25,462 nucleotides of DNA from positions 1-25,462 of the forward strand of contig JAABSK010000011.1 of NCBI GenBank assembly GCA_011390435.1, read 5' to 3'. Source of the DNA: Desulfobacteraceae bacterium (lineage in GTDB: Bacteria > Desulfobacterota > Desulfobacteria > Desulfobacterales > Desulfobacteraceae). This document shows positions 6,674 through 25,462 of this stretch, piece by piece. A program made the position numbers and the translations under genes. Every line of letters begins with the position of its first letter. Positions within the stretch are counted from its first letter, which is position 1. The notes beneath the pieces are model-generated. The model had not been told where the DNA came from and made no database searches. It saw only the letters and a program-made list of their open reading frames with translations.

Positions 6674-9600
6674 TTATTTGATCTTGCTGATAATTTTTTC
6701 CACTGCTTTTTCAGCAGTGTCACCAAACAGGGTTTCGACGTCAACCAGATTCAGGTAACGGTCATCCCACTGAATGTTGTCACCTTCCAGTATCCAGTCT
6801 TTGAGACGGTTGTATTTTCCGCCAAGCGCTTTGATTTTCTTAAGCAGTGGAACATCTTTTGATGCTTTGAAGGTGATGTTCAGCGACAGGATAAACTCAA
6901 TGATATTGGGAGTGGCCGGATTGGTGGAAATCACCGGGATCACCAGGATGTTTTTACCGTCTTTCCGGCCTTTTCCGATATAAACATTGCCTTCCCTGAC
7001 GATGATGTTCTTGGTCCCTTTGAGACTGGGATCGGTCTCCACCCGCGATGTTTCATGTTCCAGGGCACCGGTTTTTTGTACCACCTTTATTTTTGTTTCC
7101 CGGGTGACCTCACCAAGTAGACTCAGACCGGTGATCTGGTATAAAAAACCGCCATTGATGCTTGCAATCACTTCCTGGAGATTTTTGAGCACCAGCACGT
7201 TTTTGTTGGTGAGCTGTGATATCTGGATATCATGGAGTGCCAGCTCGTCAAACAGGATGCCCACAAATTTTTCCACAATCCGGCTGGTGCCGACGGTCAC
7301 TGTTTTTGCCTGATGTTTGATGGCATCCACTGGGCGGGCCATGGTGTTGATGGCCTGCCCGAGATTGTGGAAAAAGGTGTTGAGCATGTTGGAAGGGGTG
7401 CCCTTGATATTGAAGTCCACCTCAAAGTCTGACACTGGAAGCCGTCCGGACAGGTATTTAAACAGCAGTGTGAGATTGGCCATGTTGTCCAGGCCCATGG
7501 CAGCGGGAAATCCGTTCCCCCGCAGCTTTTTTGAAAACCGGTTATACAGCTGGGCAATGCATTCCCTGAATTTTTTTTCCAGCAGGACTTCATAGACGTC
7601 ATGGCCCATGTCAGTATATTCGTCCAGCAGATCCTGGATCTCTTTTCTGCCTTCATACATGAATTTTGAACCGTCGTTGATGGCAAGGGCAGCGTAATAT
7701 CCCCAGATGTGGCCCACCAGGGTATTGAGGACCGGAGCAAAATGCTCTTTGGTTTCCGGTATCTTGAAAACATCTTTGGCATAAAGATCAAACCGGTTTT
7801 CTCCCTGGGTGGTGATTACCACAGGCAAGGCTTTGTGGGCATGAAAAATGGCGGTATCCTTGATAATATCTCCCAGCACGCTTTCCCGTGTTCCAGCAGC
7901 ACAGATAATGATCAACGGCTCGCTGGACAGATCAATGTGTTTTTTGTCTTCAATGAAATCCGAGGAAATGGTTTTATAGCACAGTTCACTGAGTTTAATC
8001 CGGATTTCATCTGCTGATGTTTTGTTTGATCCGGAACCTACGGTGGCCCAGTAGTGTTTTGACACAGCAAGTGATGATGCTGATTTTTTAATCTGCTCTT
8101 TCATCTCCAGAATGGTGCGCATTTTATCCGGCAGCGCCATCAGTTCATTGACCTGGTCGGTGATATAATGATCGGTCCGCGTCCGGGCGATTCCAGCCAG
8201 GTGCAGTCCGAGAACGGCACCGGCAGTCAACTGGGAGTAAAAGGCTTTGGTTGAGGCCACCGACATTTCAATATCCCTTCCTGAGCTGGTATACAGCACA
8301 CCGTCGGTTTTAAAGGTAAGGTCTGAATCCCTCCGGTTGACAATCGCAAGGGTTCTGGCGCCGCAGGCCTTGACCATATCAACGGTCCGGTTGGTATCGG
8401 TTGTTGTACCGGACTGGCTGATAGCCACCACCAGGGCATTGTTCATGGCGGTTTCAGCGCCTTTCCCTTCTGCAATGCAAAAGCCGGACATCTCTGATGA
8501 CTTCAGGGCACGGATATTGATGCCGGCATCCCCCATATAGAAATTAAGCAGATCAGCACAGCCCTGAGCTGCGATTCCTGCAGTTCCCTGACCGATAAAG
8601 TATACCTGTCTGATGCGGTTGTTTTTAAAGTCATCTTCCAGAGATGCGGGAATGACATAGGGATCAAGCGTGGTGGTAAACATCCCGGTTTCAGGATCCT
8701 GCCGGAATTTATTTTCCAGGGTTTTTTCCACAGATACCGGAGATTCAGAGATCTCTTTTAAAAAATAGTGGGGAAAATTCTGGCGGTCGATATCGCGGGA
8801 GGTGATCTGGCTGGTGAGGATCTGATCGCTTGAAAGCTCAATCGGGGTCTGATCATAATAAAATGAACGGATACCATCGATTCCGCCAGAGGAATTCTGG
8901 TCCAGCACCACAATCTGGCCTTTGTCCTCTCCATTGAGCTTGATGTAGTCTGAGGTTTCCTCTACGATTCCATAGAGTTCTGACGCTGCAATGTAATGAT
9001 CCTTGGCAATGCCCACAAAAATCGCCTGTCCACTGCCTTTCTGGGCCAGAAACAGCTTTCCCGGGGCAAGGTCGGTATGCATGCTGATGGCATGGGAACC
9101 GTCAAAATCATTCACGGCAAGCCGGAACGCTTCCTCAACTGCATGCCCATGTTTGAGGTGATGCTCGATCTGCAGCGGGATCAGTTTGGTATCGGTGTTG
9201 ATCTCCTTATGGATTTTATCGTACCGGGCCTCATACTCTGTTTTCAGTTCCAGGTAATTGTCAATGTCACCATTCAGGCAGACATGGATAATCCCGGTTT
9301 TACCGATTTCCTTATCAGTGGGGGTGTTGTCCTGGGGATGGCAGTTGGCAACCGAAATATCGCCGATAGAAGCCCATCTGGTATGGGCAGACACTGAGTG
9401 GGTGATAAACGGATATGCAACCAGAAGGTTGAGCATCAGGTCATTTTTGATCTGGCTGCGGATAAAGGCGATATTATCGCCAAGGGCACCGATTTCCGCA
9501 GCAAATTTATAAACAATGGCAATGGAGACCAGGTGTTCTCCGGTTTCAGGATAGGTATCGCTGATGGTCACAGAATTATTTTTCAGGACTGGATGATTTG

Positions 9601-10372
9601 TCCGCTGCTTGAGGCGGTCTGACAGGCCAGCCTTGATGAGTCCTTCCCGGTAGTGTTCAAACGCTTCTTTGGTAAAGGAAAACAGGACGGAAATTCCTGC
9701 GGAATCCCTGCCCCGGACTTCAAGGCGGTCAATGCTGTTGAGTATGGCATTGATCCGTTTAAATACGGTTAATCCCTCTGGGTTGCCAGAGGTCTGCAGG
9801 CCTGGGGAAAGGGCCTCAATGGATGTGATGTTCTCCAGAATCTCTTTTTTCAGGCACCAGCAGATGTCCTGGAGTTTCTCAAGGCGGACAGACAGCAGAT
9901 CAACAATGGCTGACTGAAGATTGGGCATTTGTGATTTGAATATGGACCGCTGCTCTTTGATCAGCAGTTCAAGCGTATGAACAACCATTGAAAGCTGATT
10001 TTTTTTGTCTGTGTTGAAAAACAGTTCTGCAAAAAGGGTCTCCTGCTTGAGGTCCTGGCTTCGTTCATACAGGTCGTCTAAAACAGCATCTCCCCCAAGA
10101 TAGGTATCTGGTATCTGTTCAATGTCCATGGGAAGTTTTCTGGATGCCAGTGACTCGGCGGCTGTTTGAATCCGGTCCAGACCAAGATCCTCCGGCCTGG
10201 CTTTTCCCTTGAAAGCGATCAGGGCAGAGATCCCGCAGGAAAACGTGTTGAGCTGAACAGGAAAGAAGACAAGGGTGTTTTCAGCAGCCAGGGAAACAGG
10301 TGTTCCAACGGCAATATGGACCGGCCATGTGGTGATGATCTGTTTAAACCATTGCCATGCTCTCAGAATCAT
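6674..10372 (-). CDS. Giant glutamine-fructose-6-phosphate aminotransferase (GlmS)-like protein
   Basis: A 1232-residue relative of GlmS (usually about 610), which makes glucosamine-6-phosphate from fructose-6-phosphate and glutamine for peptidoglycan and LPS. The glutaminase domain begins at SCGISALIAFKG, with catalytic Cys46. It is interrupted by about 145 helical residues (58-203), then continues with RGRDSAG (220-226), HTRW (330-333), LNGD (366-369) and TDT (393-395). SIS domain 1 (about 585-730) has SQSGTTTDT. SIS domain 2 (about 770-900) has KLSELCY and DKKHID. By alignment in my head to E. coli GlmS, Lys485, Glu488, His504 and Lys603 correspond to Lys793, Glu796, His812 and Lys1023, the last in QAKTVTV. 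About 205 residues of unknown function follow. The start is fixed by GAGGAG six bases before the ATG. It sits between the PBP and ThDP genes. Confidence 0.85.
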   Translation of the reverse strand: MILRAWQWFKQIITTWPVHIAVGTPVSLAAENTLVFFPVQLNTFSCGISALIAFKGKARPEDLGLDRIQTAAESLASRKLPMDIEQIPDTYLGGDAVLDDLYERSQDLKQETLFAELFFNTDKKNQLSMVVHTLELLIKEQRSIFKSQMPNLQSAIVDLLSVRLEKLQDICWCLKKEILENITSIEALSPGLQTSGNPEGLTVFKRINAILNSIDRLEVRGRDSAGISVLFSFTKEAFEHYREGLIKAGLSDRLKQRTNHPVLKNNSVTISDTYPETGEHLVSIAIVYKFAAEIGALGDNIAFIRSQIKNDLMLNLLVAYPFITHSVSAHTRWASIGDISVANCHPQDNTPTDKEIGKTGIIHVCLNGDIDNYLELKTEYEARYDKIHKEINTDTKLIPLQIEHHLKHGHAVEEAFRLAVNDFDGSHAISMHTDLAPGKLFLAQKGSGQAIFVGIAKDHYIAASELYGIVEETSDYIKLNGEDKGQIVVLDQNSSGGIDGIRSFYYDQTPIELSSDQILTSQITSRDIDRQNFPHYFLKEISESPVSVEKTLENKFRQDPETGMFTTTLDPYVIPASLEDDFKNNRIRQVYFIGQGTAGIAAQGCADLLNFYMGDAGINIRALKSSEMSGFCIAEGKGAETAMNNALVVAISQSGTTTDTNRTVDMVKACGARTLAIVNRRDSDLTFKTDGVLYTSSGRDIEMSVASTKAFYSQLTAGAVLGLHLAGIARTRTDHYITDQVNELMALPDKMRTILEMKEQIKKSASSLAVSKHYWATVGSGSNKTSADEIRIKLSELCYKTISSDFIEDKKHIDLSSEPLIIICAAGTRESVLGDIIKDTAIFHAHKALPVVITTQGENRFDLYAKDVFKIPETKEHFAPVLNTLVGHIWGYYAALAINDGSKFMYEGRKEIQDLLDEYTDMGHDVYEVLLEKKFRECIAQLYNRFSKKLRGNGFPAAMGLDNMANLTLLFKYLSGRLPVSDFEVDFNIKGTPSNMLNTFFHNLGQAINTMARPVDAIKHQAKTVTVGTSRIVEKFVGILFDELALHDIQISQLTNKNVLVLKNLQEVIASINGGFLYQITGLSLLGEVTRETKIKVVQKTGALEHETSRVETDPSLKGTKNIIVREGNVYIGKGRKDGKNILVIPVISTNPATPNIIEFILSLNITFKASKDVPLLKKIKALGGKYNRLKDWILEGDNIQWDDRYLNLVDVETLFGDTAEKAVEKIISKIK

Positions 10373-18840: not shown

Positions 18841-21126
18841 ATGACATTTTCCATAATTGATTCCATCGGCAACACCCCTTTAATTGAGATCCAGAAAATG
18901 AATCCGGTAAAAGGCGTGAAGATTCTGGCCAAACTGGAATACATGAATCCTGGCGGCTCGGTAAAAGACCGGGCCGCATTGTTTATGATCACGGCTGCGG
19001 AAAAATCAGGAGAGCTGACACCGGATAAAACCGTCATTGAAGCCACCAGCGGCAACACCGGGATTGGTCTTGCCATGATCTGTGCTGTTAAAGGATATAA
19101 AATCGCTTTGACCATGGCAGAAAACGCCAGTGAAGAGCGCAAGAGCATCCTGCGCGCCCGGGGCGCACAAATTATCCTGACACCCCGGCATCTGGGTTCG
19201 GATGGCGCCATTGAAGAGGCCTACCGCCTGGCCAGGGAGAATCCGGATAAGTATTTTCTCACAGATCAGTATAATAATGATGCCAACTGGCAGGCCCATT
19301 ACGACACCACCGGTCCTGAGATCATTGAGCAGACAAAGGGAACGATCTCCTCTCTGGTGGCAACCGTTGGTACCAGTGGTACCCTGATGGGGCTTTCCCG
19401 GTGCCTGAAGGCGTATCATCAGGATATCCGCATTGTCTGTGCAGAACCATATCTCGGACATAAGATCCAGGGGCTTAAAAATATGAAAGAGTCCTATACC
19501 CCCGAGATTATGGATAAAACCCTTCTGGATGAAAAAATCAATATTGATGATGAAACTGCATTTGAAATGGCACGGAGGCTGTCCAGAGAGGAGGGGCTGT
19601 TTGTGGGAATGAGCAGCGGGGCTGCCATGGCTGCAGCCATTGAAGAGGCCCGGAAGATCAAAACCGGGGTGGTGGTGGTGATTTTCCCGGACAGCGGGGA
19701 GCGGTATCTGTCCACCAGCCTTTTTTCCGTGGAAAATCCCATTGGCCTGTCTTTGTTCAACACCTTTTCAAAAACAAAAATACCGTTTACACCCCTGGAA
19801 AAGGAAAAGGTATCCGTTTATACCTGTGGGCCCACCGTTTACAAACCACTCAATGTCGGCCAGTTGCGGCGCTATGTTTTTACCGATCTGCTGATCCGGT
19901 TTATCGAATACCACCGTGTCCGTGTCAATCATGTTGTCAATATTACCGACTATGATGATAAAACCATTCAGGGCGCTTATGAGGCTGGCCGGAATCTGTC
20001 GGAATTTACCCGGACCTATTTTGACGCCTTTAAAAAAGATATGGACCGGTTGAATATCCGGCCGGCAGATGCATATCCCAAAGTGTCGGATCATTTTGAA
20101 GAAATGATTGACGTTGTCCGCCTTCTGCTCGAAGGTGCGCATGCATATGAAAAACTGCATTCTCTCTATTTTGACATTTCCCGTCTGCCGGGATACGGTG
20201 AGTTTTCCAACGTGGATCTGGATAAAATCAAACTTGGTGCAACCGTGGATCTGGATGAATATGAAAAGCGCAACCCCAGGGATTTTACGCTTCTCAAACG
20301 GGTCCGCCTGTCTGAGTTGAAACGGGGCGTTGGGGTAAAGACCCAGTGGGGGAATGTCCGGCCTTCTCTCCATCTTCAATGTGCAGCCATTGCCATGAAA
20401 TTTCTGGGCACCCGATTTGACATTCAGACCGGCAGCCGGGAATTGATTTTCCCCCATCATGAAAATGAAGTGGCCATTGCCAAAGCAGCAAAAGGGGGAA
20501 GTCTTGCCAGCTACTGGCTGCATTGTGATCCTGTCCAGTATGACGGCTCTTTTGGGGGGTCAGATATTGATGAATTTACCCTTGACCGGTTGATAGAGAT
20601 GGGGTGGAAACCGGAAACCATCAGGTTGTGGCTGATTTCCAACCATTACCGGAAAACACTGGTGCTGTCAAAGCATGCGTTGATGCAGGCAGACCAGACA
20701 CTGGAAAAGATCAACCGCTGCATTGAAAATTTGATGGTGATTGAAGCCGGTGAAACCTGTGAAGACATTGATCAGATCCTGTACGACATGAAATCGGATT
20801 TTTCAGAGGCCCTGGCAGATGATCTGAAAATATCCGGTGTGGTATCATCCCTTCTGGTGCATGTAAAGACCATTAACCGGCTGGTGGATCAGCAAAAGAT
20901 TGATCAAAACGGCGCAGAAAAACTGATCGAAGGATTCAGAGACATTGATGCGGTGCTTCAACTGTTTCATTTCCATAAAAAAACGGAATATTCCGACCAG
21001 GTCCAGGATCTGATGGAGAGAAGAGCAGCCGCCCGTCAGCAGAAGAACTGGGAACTGGCAGATCAGCTCCGTGAGCAGCTGGAGGCCCTGGGCGTGAGTG
21101 TTCATGACAAAAAGGTAGGACAATGA
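18841..21126 (+). CDS. Cysteine synthase / cysteinyl-tRNA synthetase-like fusion protein
   Basis: A 761-residue fusion. Residues 1-305 are a fold-II PLP cysteine synthase: PLP lysine Lys42 in NPGGSVKDR, TSGNTG (69-74), phosphate loop GTSGT (177-181), and FPDSGERYLST (282-292). By family this half makes cysteine from O-acetylserine and sulfide. Residues 320-760 align end to end with cysteinyl-tRNA synthetase: CGPTVY (Cys329), ITDYDDK (368-374), HLQC (Cys514), PHHENE (538-543), a DALR-like helical domain (about 640-715) and the C-terminal AARQQKNWELADQLREQLEA. Zinc ligands appear kept (Cys329, Cys514, His539, Glu543), but HIGH reads NVGQ (338-341) and KMSKS reads SFGGS (570-574). ATP activation is therefore doubtful. 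The Shine-Dalgarno site is weak. The next gene overlaps by 4 bases. Confidence 0.9.
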   Translation: MTFSIIDSIGNTPLIEIQKMNPVKGVKILAKLEYMNPGGSVKDRAALFMITAAEKSGELTPDKTVIEATSGNTGIGLAMICAVKGYKIALTMAENASEERKSILRARGAQIILTPRHLGSDGAIEEAYRLARENPDKYFLTDQYNNDANWQAHYDTTGPEIIEQTKGTISSLVATVGTSGTLMGLSRCLKAYHQDIRIVCAEPYLGHKIQGLKNMKESYTPEIMDKTLLDEKINIDDETAFEMARRLSREEGLFVGMSSGAAMAAAIEEARKIKTGVVVVIFPDSGERYLSTSLFSVENPIGLSLFNTFSKTKIPFTPLEKEKVSVYTCGPTVYKPLNVGQLRRYVFTDLLIRFIEYHRVRVNHVVNITDYDDKTIQGAYEAGRNLSEFTRTYFDAFKKDMDRLNIRPADAYPKVSDHFEEMIDVVRLLLEGAHAYEKLHSLYFDISRLPGYGEFSNVDLDKIKLGATVDLDEYEKRNPRDFTLLKRVRLSELKRGVGVKTQWGNVRPSLHLQCAAIAMKFLGTRFDIQTGSRELIFPHHENEVAIAKAAKGGSLASYWLHCDPVQYDGSFGGSDIDEFTLDRLIEMGWKPETIRLWLISNHYRKTLVLSKHALMQADQTLEKINRCIENLMVIEAGETCEDIDQILYDMKSDFSEALADDLKISGVVSSLLVHVKTINRLVDQQKIDQNGAEKLIEGFRDIDAVLQLFHFHKKTEYSDQVQDLMERRAAARQQKNWELADQLREQLEALGVSVHDKKVGQ

Positions 21127-22529: not shown

Positions 22530-23726
22530 TTATTCGATCTCATTGTACAGATTCAAATCCGGATAGTGCGTTTTTGCACATTCCTGACAGATACCGTGGC
22601 TGAACCTGGCTTCAGAATGTTCGTGAATATACTGCTCAATCTGCTTCCAGTATCCTTTGTCATCCCGTATTTTTTTACAATGGGAACAGATGGGAAGCAG
22701 GCCGCTGAGCTGTTTGACATTTTCCAATGCCTTTTTGAGTTCCTGAATGAGGTCGGTTTTCTGTTTTTCAGCCGTGTTTCGATTGTCGATGTTCTGGCTG
22801 TTCTGAAGCGCAATGGCGGCAAGTTCACCAAATCCGCTGGCAATGTCGGCATCGTTTTGTGTGAAATCTGATTTTTTGTTTGCCAGTCCCATGATCCCAA
22901 CAGTTTTTTGCTCGATGACAAGGGGAGCAAACAAAACGTTTTTCAGTGGTACGTGTCCGCCGGGCATGAACTGAACCCATTCAGAATGCATAAAATCATT
23001 ATCAAATACAGTGGCGCAGGTATGGTAGGCGGTTTCCCTCAACCCCCGGATGGGCATGGGCAACTCCGGATCAACAGTACAGGCAAGGTTGCCGGCCTCC
23101 AGGAACAACACCTCATTTTCACTGCCATCTTCTGACAGCAGGGCAACATAGCCGGATGTGGATCCAATCAGCTCGGAGCAGATATCAAAGACTTTTCTGG
23201 CGGTGGTTTTAAAATCTGTTTGCCGGAGAATCGCCCGGGCTCCTTTCAAGAGCCCGGCAATTTCCTGTTCCCGGATGGTGGACTGCTCCAGTGCTGTCTG
23301 AAGTGTGCGTTTCGTGGATTCCAGATGGGTGATGAGACGGTGGCGTTCCATGGCGTAGCGGATGGTCCGGGTAATGGTGGCAACCGAAGGTTCTCCTTTG
23401 CTGAGATAGTCCTGAGCGCCGTGTTGAACAGCAGAAAGGGCTGTTTCAAGGTCATTGATCCCTGACATGATAATGACGGGAATTTGCGGGTACTGTTTAT
23501 AAAAGGTTAAAAATGTGTCCAGTCCATAGCTGTCGGGAAGGTGAAGATCAAGTATTGCCACGTCTGGAGTGATCGTCTCAGCCATCTCAAGGGCTTTTTC
23601 AAGCCGCTGTGCATGAAAAACTTTTGTTTGTATCTCGTCCGATGATGTAAGGGTTTCTGTCAGCAGCAGTGCATCATCCAGATTGTCCTCGAGTATCAAA
23701 ACAGTGATCGGTTGACGCGCCATCAT
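22530..23726 (-). CDS. Response regulator with REC, GAF and C-terminal CxxC motifs
   Basis: A 398-residue cytoplasmic signalling protein. The receiver domain (about 7-125) has the acidic pair in LEDNLDD, phosphoacceptor Asp60 in AILDLHLPD, the Ser of IIMSG and the Lys of YLSKGEP. A coiled linker (about 125-165) leads to a GAF domain (about 170-310). After a second coiled stretch, the tail has two CxxC pairs, CSHC (347-350) and CQEC (380-383), flanking KKIRDDKGYW; this looks like a zinc-binding module found in other Desulfobacterota sensors, whose role I do not know. There is no DNA-binding or cyclase domain. The ATG at 23726 follows GGAGTGA and overlaps the stop of the preceding regulator. 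Confidence 0.85.
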   Translation of the reverse strand: MMARQPITVLILEDNLDDALLLTETLTSSDEIQTKVFHAQRLEKALEMAETITPDVAILDLHLPDSYGLDTFLTFYKQYPQIPVIIMSGINDLETALSAVQHGAQDYLSKGEPSVATITRTIRYAMERHRLITHLESTKRTLQTALEQSTIREQEIAGLLKGARAILRQTDFKTTARKVFDICSELIGSTSGYVALLSEDGSENEVLFLEAGNLACTVDPELPMPIRGLRETAYHTCATVFDNDFMHSEWVQFMPGGHVPLKNVLFAPLVIEQKTVGIMGLANKKSDFTQNDADIASGFGELAAIALQNSQNIDNRNTAEKQKTDLIQELKKALENVKQLSGLLPICSHCKKIRDDKGYWKQIEQYIHEHSEARFSHGICQECAKTHYPDLNLYNEIE

Positions 23727-24175
23727 TCACTCCTTCGGGGCAGTTTAACCAGTTGAAACCAGAACCCTTCGATCTGTTTTACAATTTCGGAAAACTGTCG
23801 AAAATCCACAGGTTTTGAAATATAGCAGTTGGCATGCAGCTGATATGCTTTGCAGACATCTTCTTCACTCTGGGAGGTGGTCAGGACCACGACAGGCAGA
23901 TCTGTCAGGTCTGGATCATCCCGGACAGCCTTTAACACTTCCCGGCCATCCATCAATGGCAGATTTAAGTCCAGAAGAATCAGATCCGGTCTGGGTTTGT
24001 GGAGATACTCCTCCTGCTGGCGCAGAAATTTCATGGCGGCAATGCCGTCAGACACCACATGCACATCCATTCGGACTTTAGAGTCTTTTAATGCTTCCAG
24101 AGTCAGTTCCACATCATCAACATTATCCTCGACCAGAAGAACCTGGGCCGGTTTGACGTTATCCATATCTGTCAT
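23723..24175 (-). CDS. CheY/Rcp1-like single-domain response regulator
   Basis: A 150-residue stand-alone receiver. The acidic pocket is VEDNVDD (15-21), the phosphoacceptor is Asp69 in LILLDLNLPLMDG, the switch Thr is in VVVLTTSQSEED (Thr99/100), and the conserved Lys121 is in YISKPVDF. The length and the extended loop before the phosphoacceptor resemble the Rcp1 group that partners phytochrome-like kinases. It lacks an output domain, so it probably acts by protein contact or in a phosphorelay. Its ATG overlaps the kinase stop as ATGA, making that kinase its likely partner. Confidence 0.9.
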   Translation of the reverse strand: MTDMDNVKPAQVLLVEDNVDDVELTLEALKDSKVRMDVHVVSDGIAAMKFLRQQEEYLHKPRPDLILLDLNLPLMDGREVLKAVRDDPDLTDLPVVVLTTSQSEEDVCKAYQLHANCYISKPVDFRQFSEIVKQIEGFWFQLVKLPRRSE

Positions 24176-25462
24176 TTGAGTTTCCTTTGTTTTGGAAGAG
24201 AGAAAAAAAAGGTAGCGCCTTCATCTTGAGCGGATTCCAGCCAGAGTTTGCCGTTATGGCGGTCAATAATTTTTTTACACAGGGCAAGACCGATACCGGT
24301 CCCGGAATATTCCTGCCGGGTGTGCAGCCGCTGAAAAATCATAAAGATCCGTTCGTGAAACCGGGGGGCAATGCCAATGCCGTTATCTTTAACAAAAAAG
24401 CAGTATTCATCTGTTGTTTCGTGACAGCCGATTTCAATAATAACGGTATGATTTTCATTGTACTTGATCGCATTTGTCAGTAAGTTCTGGAACAGACTTG
24501 TGATCTGAGTGCGATCCACAATGACTTCCGGAAGGTCGCGCACGGCGATCTGTATCTTTTTTTCCTGAAAACCAGATGTGAGCGTTTCAGAAATCCGGGT
24601 GATCACTCTGTGCAGGTCTGTTGGCTTCAAAACAAGATCCTGCGTGTTGACGCGGGACAGACGCAGCAGGTCATTGATCAGTCCCTGCATTCGCCTTCCG
24701 GCATTGATTGCCCGCTCAATATAGTGCACGCCTTTTTCATCCAGAAGGTGTGTATATCTGGATTCCAGAAGCTGAAGAAATCCGACAACCGCCCGCAGAG
24801 GCTCCTGGAGATCGTGGGAGGCCACATAGGCAAATTGCTGGAGCTCTGCATTGGATCTTTCCAGATCCGCCAGTGTCTGTTTCAGCGAGGCTTCCATGTT
24901 GAGCCGTTCTGTCAGATCGACAAAAGTGGCCAGAAAATGGTCATGAACAGCAGTGCCGGAGATAATGACATTCCGGGTTTCTCCGTTCTTGCAGGTCATC
25001 TGGTATTCAACAGGGTCGATATCAATATGAAAGGTTTTTGCCCGGTTGACAGCTTCTGCCCAGGTGGTTTTGACCCATTGCCGGTATTTCGGGTCTGGAT
25101 AAACCTTTTCCCACCAGCTGTCCAGGGTTGGAATATCAGCCAATGTATACCCGAAAACCTGAGTGAGTTTCGGGTTGATGTCCAGAATAATGCCGTTGTC
25201 TTTGGCAAAGCACATGGGAATCGCAGCGGAATGAAAAAGCATTTTGAATTTGCTTTCACTTTTCTGAAGGGTTTGTTCAGCCTGTTTGCGGTCCTGAATT
25301 TCCTGTACTAAAGATTTTGTCTTACGGGCAATTTCCTTTTTCATGGCCCACAGCCCGATGATCGTGATCAAAAAAAATAAAGGTGTCACAATCAATGCCA
25401 GGGCTTTGGCCAGCGTTTTCCACCCGGGACCTGTCTGTTGCAGGATCGGGCCGAACCATTTT
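24172..25462 (-). CDS. PAS-containing sensor histidine kinase (5' partial)
   Basis: The 3' part of a membrane histidine kinase; the frame stays open to the window edge, so the start is outside. The visible chain begins KWFGPILQQT on the likely periplasmic side, then a membrane segment (about 25410-25345), a short coiled coil, a PAS domain (about 25250-24910), a HisKA domain with the phospho-acceptor His in VASHDLQEPLR (codon near 24815), and a HATPase domain with N box NLLTNAIKYN, DNGIGIAP and GTGIGLAL. The kinase core resembles Cph1-type enzymes that pair with Rcp1-like regulators, as encoded next. The TTG near 25395 is inside the membrane segment and is not a credible start. The periplasmic sensor part cannot be seen. 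Confidence 0.9.
   Translation of the reverse strand, partial: KWFGPILQQTGPGWKTLAKALALIVTPLFFLITIIGLWAMKKEIARKTKSLVQEIQDRKQAEQTLQKSESKFKMLFHSAAIPMCFAKDNGIILDINPKLTQVFGYTLADIPTLDSWWEKVYPDPKYRQWVKTTWAEAVNRAKTFHIDIDPVEYQMTCKNGETRNVIISGTAVHDHFLATFVDLTERLNMEASLKQTLADLERSNAELQQFAYVASHDLQEPLRAVVGFLQLLESRYTHLLDEKGVHYIERAINAGRRMQGLINDLLRLSRVNTQDLVLKPTDLHRVITRISETLTSGFQEKKIQIAVRDLPEVIVDRTQITSLFQNLLTNAIKYNENHTVIIEIGCHETTDEYCFFVKDNGIGIAPRFHERIFMIFQRLHTRQEYSGTGIGLALCKKIIDRHNGKLWLESAQDEGATFFFSLPKQRKLK

Follow-up and report, generated by a model that had tools for sequence, protein, structure and literature searches.

A cysteine synthase fused to a cysteinyl-tRNA synthetase-like half that appears to have lost cysteine activation while keeping the residues for cysteine and tRNA-Cys recognition

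The window analysed here, the whole of a 25,462-nucleotide stretch of DNA from a Desulfobacteraceae bacterium (GenBank assembly GCA_011390435.1, contig JAABSK010000011.1), carries on its plus strand (18841-21126) a single open frame of 761 codons in which a cysteine synthase is joined to a half resembling cysteinyl-tRNA synthetase (CysRS). In this CysRS-like half the ATP-activation elements are changed, which strongly suggests that it no longer charges tRNA, and the residues of the cysteine/zinc pocket and of tRNA-Cys anticodon recognition are kept, from which binding of cysteine and tRNA-Cys is predicted. Judged from sequence, the simplest account is a cysteine and tRNA-Cys binding module mounted on a cysteine synthase. 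We tentatively favour, short of calling it probable, a model in which this half, devoid of cysteine activation, would bind cysteine and/or tRNA-Cys and tune the attached enzyme, much as HisZ, a paralogue of histidyl-tRNA synthetase (HisRS) without adenylation, mediates feedback on HisG (PMC9437257).

The N-terminal half scores above the cut-off of NCBIfam TIGR01136, a cysteine synthase subfamily (370.5 bits versus 344.15, residues 7-295), and below those of the CysM equivalog TIGR01138 (363.8 versus 394.2 bits) and of the CysK equivalog; it differs from ordinary CysK/CysM enzymes in this respect and in bearing a pseudo-synthetase. Residues 303-760 score 329.9 bits with TIGR00435 (cysS), slightly below the cut-off of 340 for that equivalog, which some other fusions exceed (up to 463 bits). 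Pfam recognises PALP, tRNA-synt_1e and CysS_C, the last being the CysRS anticodon-binding domain. CysRS sequences from the PDB align end to end with the CysRS-like half, as a reading made earlier from the letters alone (the sequence-only reading) had claimed, and the residues that it had named, including NVGQ (338-341), SFGGS (570-574), Leu510 and the four zinc ligands, sit where it had placed them. The half shares with E. coli CysRS (1li5/1u0b) the fold over its whole length, the zinc ligands and the anticodon-domain residues, and departs from it by its changed HIGH, KMSKS, GGG and D229, its N-terminal cysteine synthase and its cysS score under the cut-off.

For counts of conservation, distinct fusions were grouped into the window's set (166) and a wider, second set (144); one protein is common to both, making 309 in total, and paired counts below are given in that order. 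The sets draw on (i) a search with the CysRS half, in which 5484 of the 7999 scored candidates reached E<=0.001 and the top 120 were listed, (ii) a further search that used L097, a diverged fusion, as query and listed another 120 proteins, (iii) a scan of species genomes in which 80 loci were kept of 249, those numbered L001-L062 covering the CysRS half in whole or in part and the remaining ones matching the cysteine synthase half only, and (iv) loci from the 118 phylum genomes described below. Membership follows the search and not the clade, and the first set takes in some diverged members. Exact duplicates and partial fusions were left out, the latter being loci of <=650 amino acids (aa) and database proteins of <700 aa (first set) or <640 aa (second set). 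The controls are a small set of 21 standalone CysRS, mostly from Desulfobacterota.

In the window, HIGH reads NVGQ, KMSKS reads SFGGS and the GGG element is altered, and neither signature of a functional CysRS is left. Both HIGH histidines are found in 0/166 and 8/144 fusions against 21/21 controls, the KMSK string in 0/166 and 0/144 against 21/21, and the histidines together with KMSK in no fusion of either set, again against all 21 controls. Alignment of the KMSKS region is difficult in the window's clade, where single-column counts vary between alignments, and the absence of KMSK was therefore also tested as a plain string in that region. G225 of the GGG element, present in 21/21 controls, is kept in no fusion of either set and has become Thr in 164/166 of the window's set (297/307 over both sets), and D229 has become Glu in 150/166 of the window's set. 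The sequence-only reading had raised the question of whether NVGQ and SFGGS are conserved among homologues, and the answer is a partial one: an altered HIGH and the absence of KMSK recur, but the letters vary between clades, the HIGH position being occupied by NIGQ, NVGQ, HIGL, DITH, NPGR, DPSR, NIEE, HLGE and others, and the KMSKS position by SLGx-type or unrelated letters. A sequencing error or an oddity of a single genome is ruled out by the recurrence of the pattern in 166 distinct homologues, and an ordinary CysRS by the joint changes in HIGH, KMSKS, GGG and D229. Loss of KMSKS had been taken as a sign of inactivity, and KMSK is indeed absent from all fusions, but loss of the lysines alone is weaker evidence than it seemed: E. 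coli CysRS carrying K266A, K269A or both is reported to leave cell-free protein synthesis intact (PMC5660078). The case for inactivity therefore rests on HIGH, KMSKS, GGG and D229 together, and on the other CysRS present in relatives.

While the ATP elements vary clade by clade, the zinc triad, the anticodon residues and the cysteine synthase active site are almost fixed. The window has all four zinc ligands of CysRS (Cys329, Cys514, His539 and Glu543), and the triad C28/C209/H234 (E. coli numbering) is jointly kept in 165/166 and 142/144 fusions, or 306 of the 309 distinct proteins, as is T68 in 165/166 and 142/144. The fourth ligand, E238, is replaced in a sister clade, mostly by Ala, Ser or Thr, with C28, C209 and H234 kept (many of P0138-P0240 and several loci), and the earlier claim that the zinc site is retained must therefore be confined, for the full site, to the window's clade, E238 being found in only 49/144 of the wider set. 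Two fusions (L155 and L158, from genomes G088 and G114) have Asp at C28, Val at E238 and an unchanged anticodon domain; by their sequences, they are a natural case of a zinc pocket that is going while the tRNA-reading residues stay.

As for tRNA recognition, the window has the anticodon-binding domain with the residues that contact G34, which in E. coli CysRS are R427, D436, W432 and R423 (PMC12684709). Five residues of this domain are jointly kept in 165/165 and 138/139 of the fusions that have it, and residue 432 is aromatic in every one of them; three of the five, plus the aromatic residue, correspond to the E. coli G34 contacts. In the window's set all seven canonical-invariant columns of the domain are kept at >=97%, against 60/135 for the whole protein, an enrichment (hypergeometric P = 0.0028) that neglects linkage between neighbouring columns and shared ancestry. 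In the cysteine synthase half the residues of the pyridoxal-phosphate (PLP) enzyme active site are intact, and the loop S70-G71-N72-T73, which we take to bind the carboxylate, is unchanged. The CysRS-like half has also gained residues of its own, T43R (309/309) and I74T (308/309), both absent from the 21 controls, and their near-invariance speaks for constraint under a new function and against decay. The pseudo-synthetase proposed by the sequence-only reading is thus upheld as far as binding means without activation means are concerned; the roles that it offered (sensor, tRNA-dependent transfer domain or regulator) are not separated by sequence analysis.

In 16 relative genomes picked from the 62 fusion loci, a standalone CysRS with HIGH and KMSKS is present every time, scoring 449-475 bits with PF01406, against 225-296 bits for the fusions (a second fusion, in one of the genomes, scores 302); genome G014 carries a canonical CysRS and two different fusions. 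A wider view comes from 118 genomes of the phylum of Desulfopila sp. IMCC35008 (G001), with at most 8 candidates scored per genome, 48 of which have a fusion match stronger than 1e-150, near full length in 45 and partial in three (G027, G324 and G078); loci were read for 30 of these 48 genomes. Within an even sample of 59 phylum genomes, in which co-occurrence was counted by eye and standalone motifs were read only where copies became loci, 25 carry the fusion (identical to the 25 from the 118-genome scan), and 22 of them have a standalone CysRS above 520 bits, that of G317 lacking model positions 1-23. The remaining three have a standalone gene split over two frames (G053), a fragment in a 109-aa frame (G036) or none that was found (G313). 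As for the cysteine synthase, the fusion is the sole match above the cysteine synthase cut-off in 3 of the 16 genomes (Desulfobacter latus, HSG16 and a Desulfamplus metagenome-assembled genome, all drafts), and its cysteine synthase half therefore probably works.

The model that we favour starts from a half that would have lost activation and kept both the cysteine/zinc pocket and tRNA-Cys anticodon recognition. This pseudo-synthetase would bind cysteine, tRNA-Cys or charged Cys-tRNA-Cys, and binding would alter the activity of the attached cysteine synthase, giving an end-product feedback made from a synthetase paralogue, for which HisZ acting on HisG is the precedent. Control could run either way: plentiful cysteine or charged tRNA might inhibit the enzyme, or uncharged tRNA might activate it. 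A more specific version, to which we lend much less credence, is that the pseudo-synthetase might read charged Cys-tRNA-Cys, whose anticodon would be bound by the C-terminal domain at the same time as the cysteine sits in the zinc pocket, without ATP. The rate of the cysteine synthase would then be set by the charging state of tRNA-Cys, and a metabolic enzyme would answer directly to its own aminoacyl-tRNA. What the fusion has in common with HisZ, as the latter is described, is a non-adenylating synthetase paralogue tied to an enzyme that makes its own amino acid. HisZ is a class II protein and a separate subunit, whereas the half described here is class I, is fused and retains the residues for recognition of the tRNA anticodon. 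Regulation of this kind, if true, would make cysteine the second amino-acid pathway, after histidine and HisZ, with a retired synthetase tied to biosynthesis, and would extend the theme to a new synthetase class, pathway and architecture (fused, with its own tRNA-reading domain). It would also fit hosts in which cysteine and sulfide need balancing, many named members of the fusion-bearing phylum being, as we presume from their genus names, sulfate reducers.

Several observations weigh against this model, or against parts of it. The neighbouring genes (LptD, a 322-aa gene and P-II/glnD-like/glutamine synthetase-like genes) hold no regulatory clue, and a separate CysK lies beside a serine acetyltransferase-like gene (148-168 bits, cysE cut-off 210.65) in 13 of the 16 relative genomes, which means that cysteine need not come mainly from the fusion. 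The structure model of the fusion has a predicted template-modelling score (pTM) of 0.60, with the placement of domains uncertain. Binding residues are missing from a few members: C28 is lost in three fusions (Thr in L036, Asp in L155 and L158), and the anticodon domain is without aligned residues in 6/309 (L097, P0121, P0122, P0163, P0222 and P0224). Activation residues persist in others: D229 is retained in 114/144 of the second set, and near-canonical members, such as P0198 from Thermosulfuriphilus, have HLGL or HLGN with KMSRS and could retain some activity. The six members without an aligned anticodon domain are 668-730 aa long, one of them (P0222) carrying the label partial in its name. 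Taken as a series, the halves of the family run from near-canonical to fully degenerate and document, in nature, how a synthetase loses activation while recognition is kept.

Two other functions, each of which we hold to be unlikely, would use the same kept residues. In the first, the fusion would be a channelling scaffold: the cysteine that it makes would stay at the zinc site, with tRNA-Cys docked as well, until both are handed to the separate working CysRS. Cysteine would remain local in a sulfide-rich cell, and no allostery would be needed. The fused enzyme produces exactly what the second half would bind, the sites for tRNA and cysteine are kept together, a separate CysRS exists in relatives, and in Acetoanaerobium noterae both halves have matches inside a stretch of about 3 kb on a single strand, but there is no sign of contact with CysRS and the hand-over would require release and rebinding. 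The A. noterae matches are two tblastn pieces (NZ_CP154629.1, 2282002-2284932) that cover both halves at 34% identity, and in this organism the two functions may be encoded by neighbouring, unfused genes. In the second, no more probable in our view, the half would be an enzyme acting on Cys-tRNA-Cys, from which it would transfer or release the cysteinyl group; the PLP half may modify this group. Loss of HIGH with tRNA recognition kept is akin to the loss of HIGH in cyclodipeptide synthases, which use aminoacyl-tRNA (PMC2922099), and new near-invariant residues (T43R in all fusions, and G225T) lie beside the old ATP site. Against it stand the lack of a partner or acceptor gene conserved next door across the family, and the unchanged S70-G71-N72-T73 loop, which suits free amino acid substrates.

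More doubtful is the idea of a relic, a former CysRS retained solely for the folding or dimerisation of the cysteine synthase, with which the free drift of the ATP motifs among clades and the members lacking C28 (three) or the anticodon domain (six) would agree; elsewhere, however, zinc ligands and anticodon residues are near-invariant, more so than folding by itself would demand. A still-active, unusual CysRS is improbable too. The KMSK lysine mutants of the E. coli enzyme keep cell-free protein synthesis (PMC5660078), some members combine HLGx with KMSRS and score above the cysS cut-off, and G313 has no standalone CysRS that we found, but HIGH, KMSKS, GGG and D229 are changed jointly in the window's set and the relatives have a canonical CysRS in 16/16 cases. 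Moreover, genome G317, whose fusion is very similar to that of G313, has a standalone CysRS with HIGH and KMSKS (its assembled start, including the C28 position, is without a match). A CysRS-type cysteine persulfide synthase (CPERS), with PLP on the KIIK and KMSK lysines, would suit both a companion half that is a PLP enzyme and named hosts many of which are, judging by their genus names, sulfate reducers. It is highly improbable, as the needed lysines K73, K76, K266 and K269 (PMC5660078) occur together in 0/166 and 0/144 fusions, against 14/21 controls.

Other synthetase relatives help to place the regulatory module that we favour. MshC, the mycothiol cysteine ligase, is believed to adenylate cysteine (PMC2922099), and is the reverse pattern, the window's fusion having lost the means of activation and kept those of tRNA reading; the MshC model (TIGR03447) gives 169 bits against a cut-off of 485.1, over residues 300-668 only, and ends before the anticodon domain. 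CysRS* (cysS*) of Desulfobacterales is described as lacking the anticodon-binding domain, charging the selC* tRNA and being linked to selC* and selB* (PMC7609411, PMC9437257). It is likewise a second CysRS-like gene in this order, but the fusion, with an anticodon-binding domain (PF23493, 39.5 bits) and without the ATP motifs, is set apart by that description. Cyclodipeptide synthases, described as class I synthetase relatives without HIGH that use charged tRNA as substrate (PMC2922099), share with the fusion, by that account, the loss of HIGH.

Among the matches listed, the closest relatives are four fusions of 759-761 aa (P0002-P0005) with 70-71% identity over the CysRS half. In a FastTree tree of that half, with 19 controls and without L155 and L158, fusions are separated from controls with a support of only 0.74 and the deep branches are weak; the window's branch retains E238 and is without the KMSK lysines, and another branch mostly keeps lysine and loses E238. 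One fusion on a contig labelled Candidatus Anammoximicrobium (L049), with PHGDNE versus PHHENE, groups with L159 from the phylum sample, by lateral transfer or misbinning. The names listed in databases are 'cysteine synthase', 'cysteine--tRNA ligase' and 'cysteinyl-tRNA synthetase', plus 'pyridoxal-phosphate dependent enzyme' for a few partials; each misses one half. Among the matches listed from the open-licence PMC literature no description of the fusion was found, which is no proof of its absence from print.

Table 1. Coordinates of the fusion gene, its conserved and altered residues and the downstream gene in the window (counts: window's set, then wider set)
Feature	Position	Strand	Remarks
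Fusion gene, 761 aa	18841..21126	+	open reading frame; NCBIfam TIGR01136 and TIGR00435; Pfam PALP, tRNA-synt_1e, CysS_C
Cysteine synthase half (CysK/CysM-type), residues 1-295	18841..19725	+	
CysRS-like half (putative pseudo-CysRS), residues 303-760	19747..21120	+	
Cys329 (E. coli C28), zinc ligand	19825..19827	+	kept in 165/166 and 142/144 fusions
NVGQ (338-341) at the HIGH position	19852..19863	+	both histidines in 0/166 and 8/144 fusions
Cys514 (C209), zinc ligand	20380..20382	+	166/166 and 144/144 fusions
His539 (H234), zinc ligand	20455..20457	+	166/166 and 144/144 fusions
Glu543 (E238), fourth zinc ligand	20467..20469	+	163/166 and 49/144 fusions
SFGGS (570-574) at the KMSKS position	20548..20562	+	KMSK string in 0/166 and 0/144 fusions; 21/21 controls
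Anticodon-binding domain, residues 716-761	20986..21123	+	PF23493, 39.5 bits
R728, R732, D741, R744, D756 of the anticodon domain			E. coli R423, R427, D436, R439, D451; W737 is W432
Downstream gene of unknown function, 322 aa	21123..22091	+	ATG overlaps the fusion stop (ATGA)

The surroundings of the fusion differ between Desulfobacterales and Desulfobulbales-like loci, and no operon partner therefore accounts for it family-wide. In Desulfobacterales it is divergent from LptD (matched in 47/62 loci) and followed by the 322-aa gene, which has a tblastn match in 44/62 fusion loci; of the 58 loci with downstream sequence, a start with the family motif is recognised in 44 and overlaps the fusion stop by four bases in 21. 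In five Desulfobulbales-like loci (L046, L048, L051, L052 and L056), P-II, glnD-like and glutamine synthetase-like genes were seen by eye in various of them. The 322-aa protein has an FFPFT motif near its N-terminus and no Pfam domain, and its structure model, of fair quality (pLDDT, the predicted local distance difference test, 79.6), has no PDB fold match at E<=0.001. Of 7992 database candidates, 62 are relatives of this protein at E<=0.001, none of them with a functional name; the hosts that are named are Desulfobacula, Desulfamplus, Desulfatibacillum and unspecified Desulfobacterales and Deltaproteobacteria.

No RNA element at gathering threshold and no tRNA gene by ARAGORN was found in the window. 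On its minus strand, 6674-10372 encodes a protein of 1232 aa in which SIS and glutamine amidotransferase-like stretches occur; it falls under the GlmS cut-offs and is matched beside the cluster of the fusion in 24/62 loci. Also on that strand, 22530-25395 holds histidine kinase, response regulator and response regulator-GAF genes, which lie near the fusion in 1 to 4 of the 62 loci.

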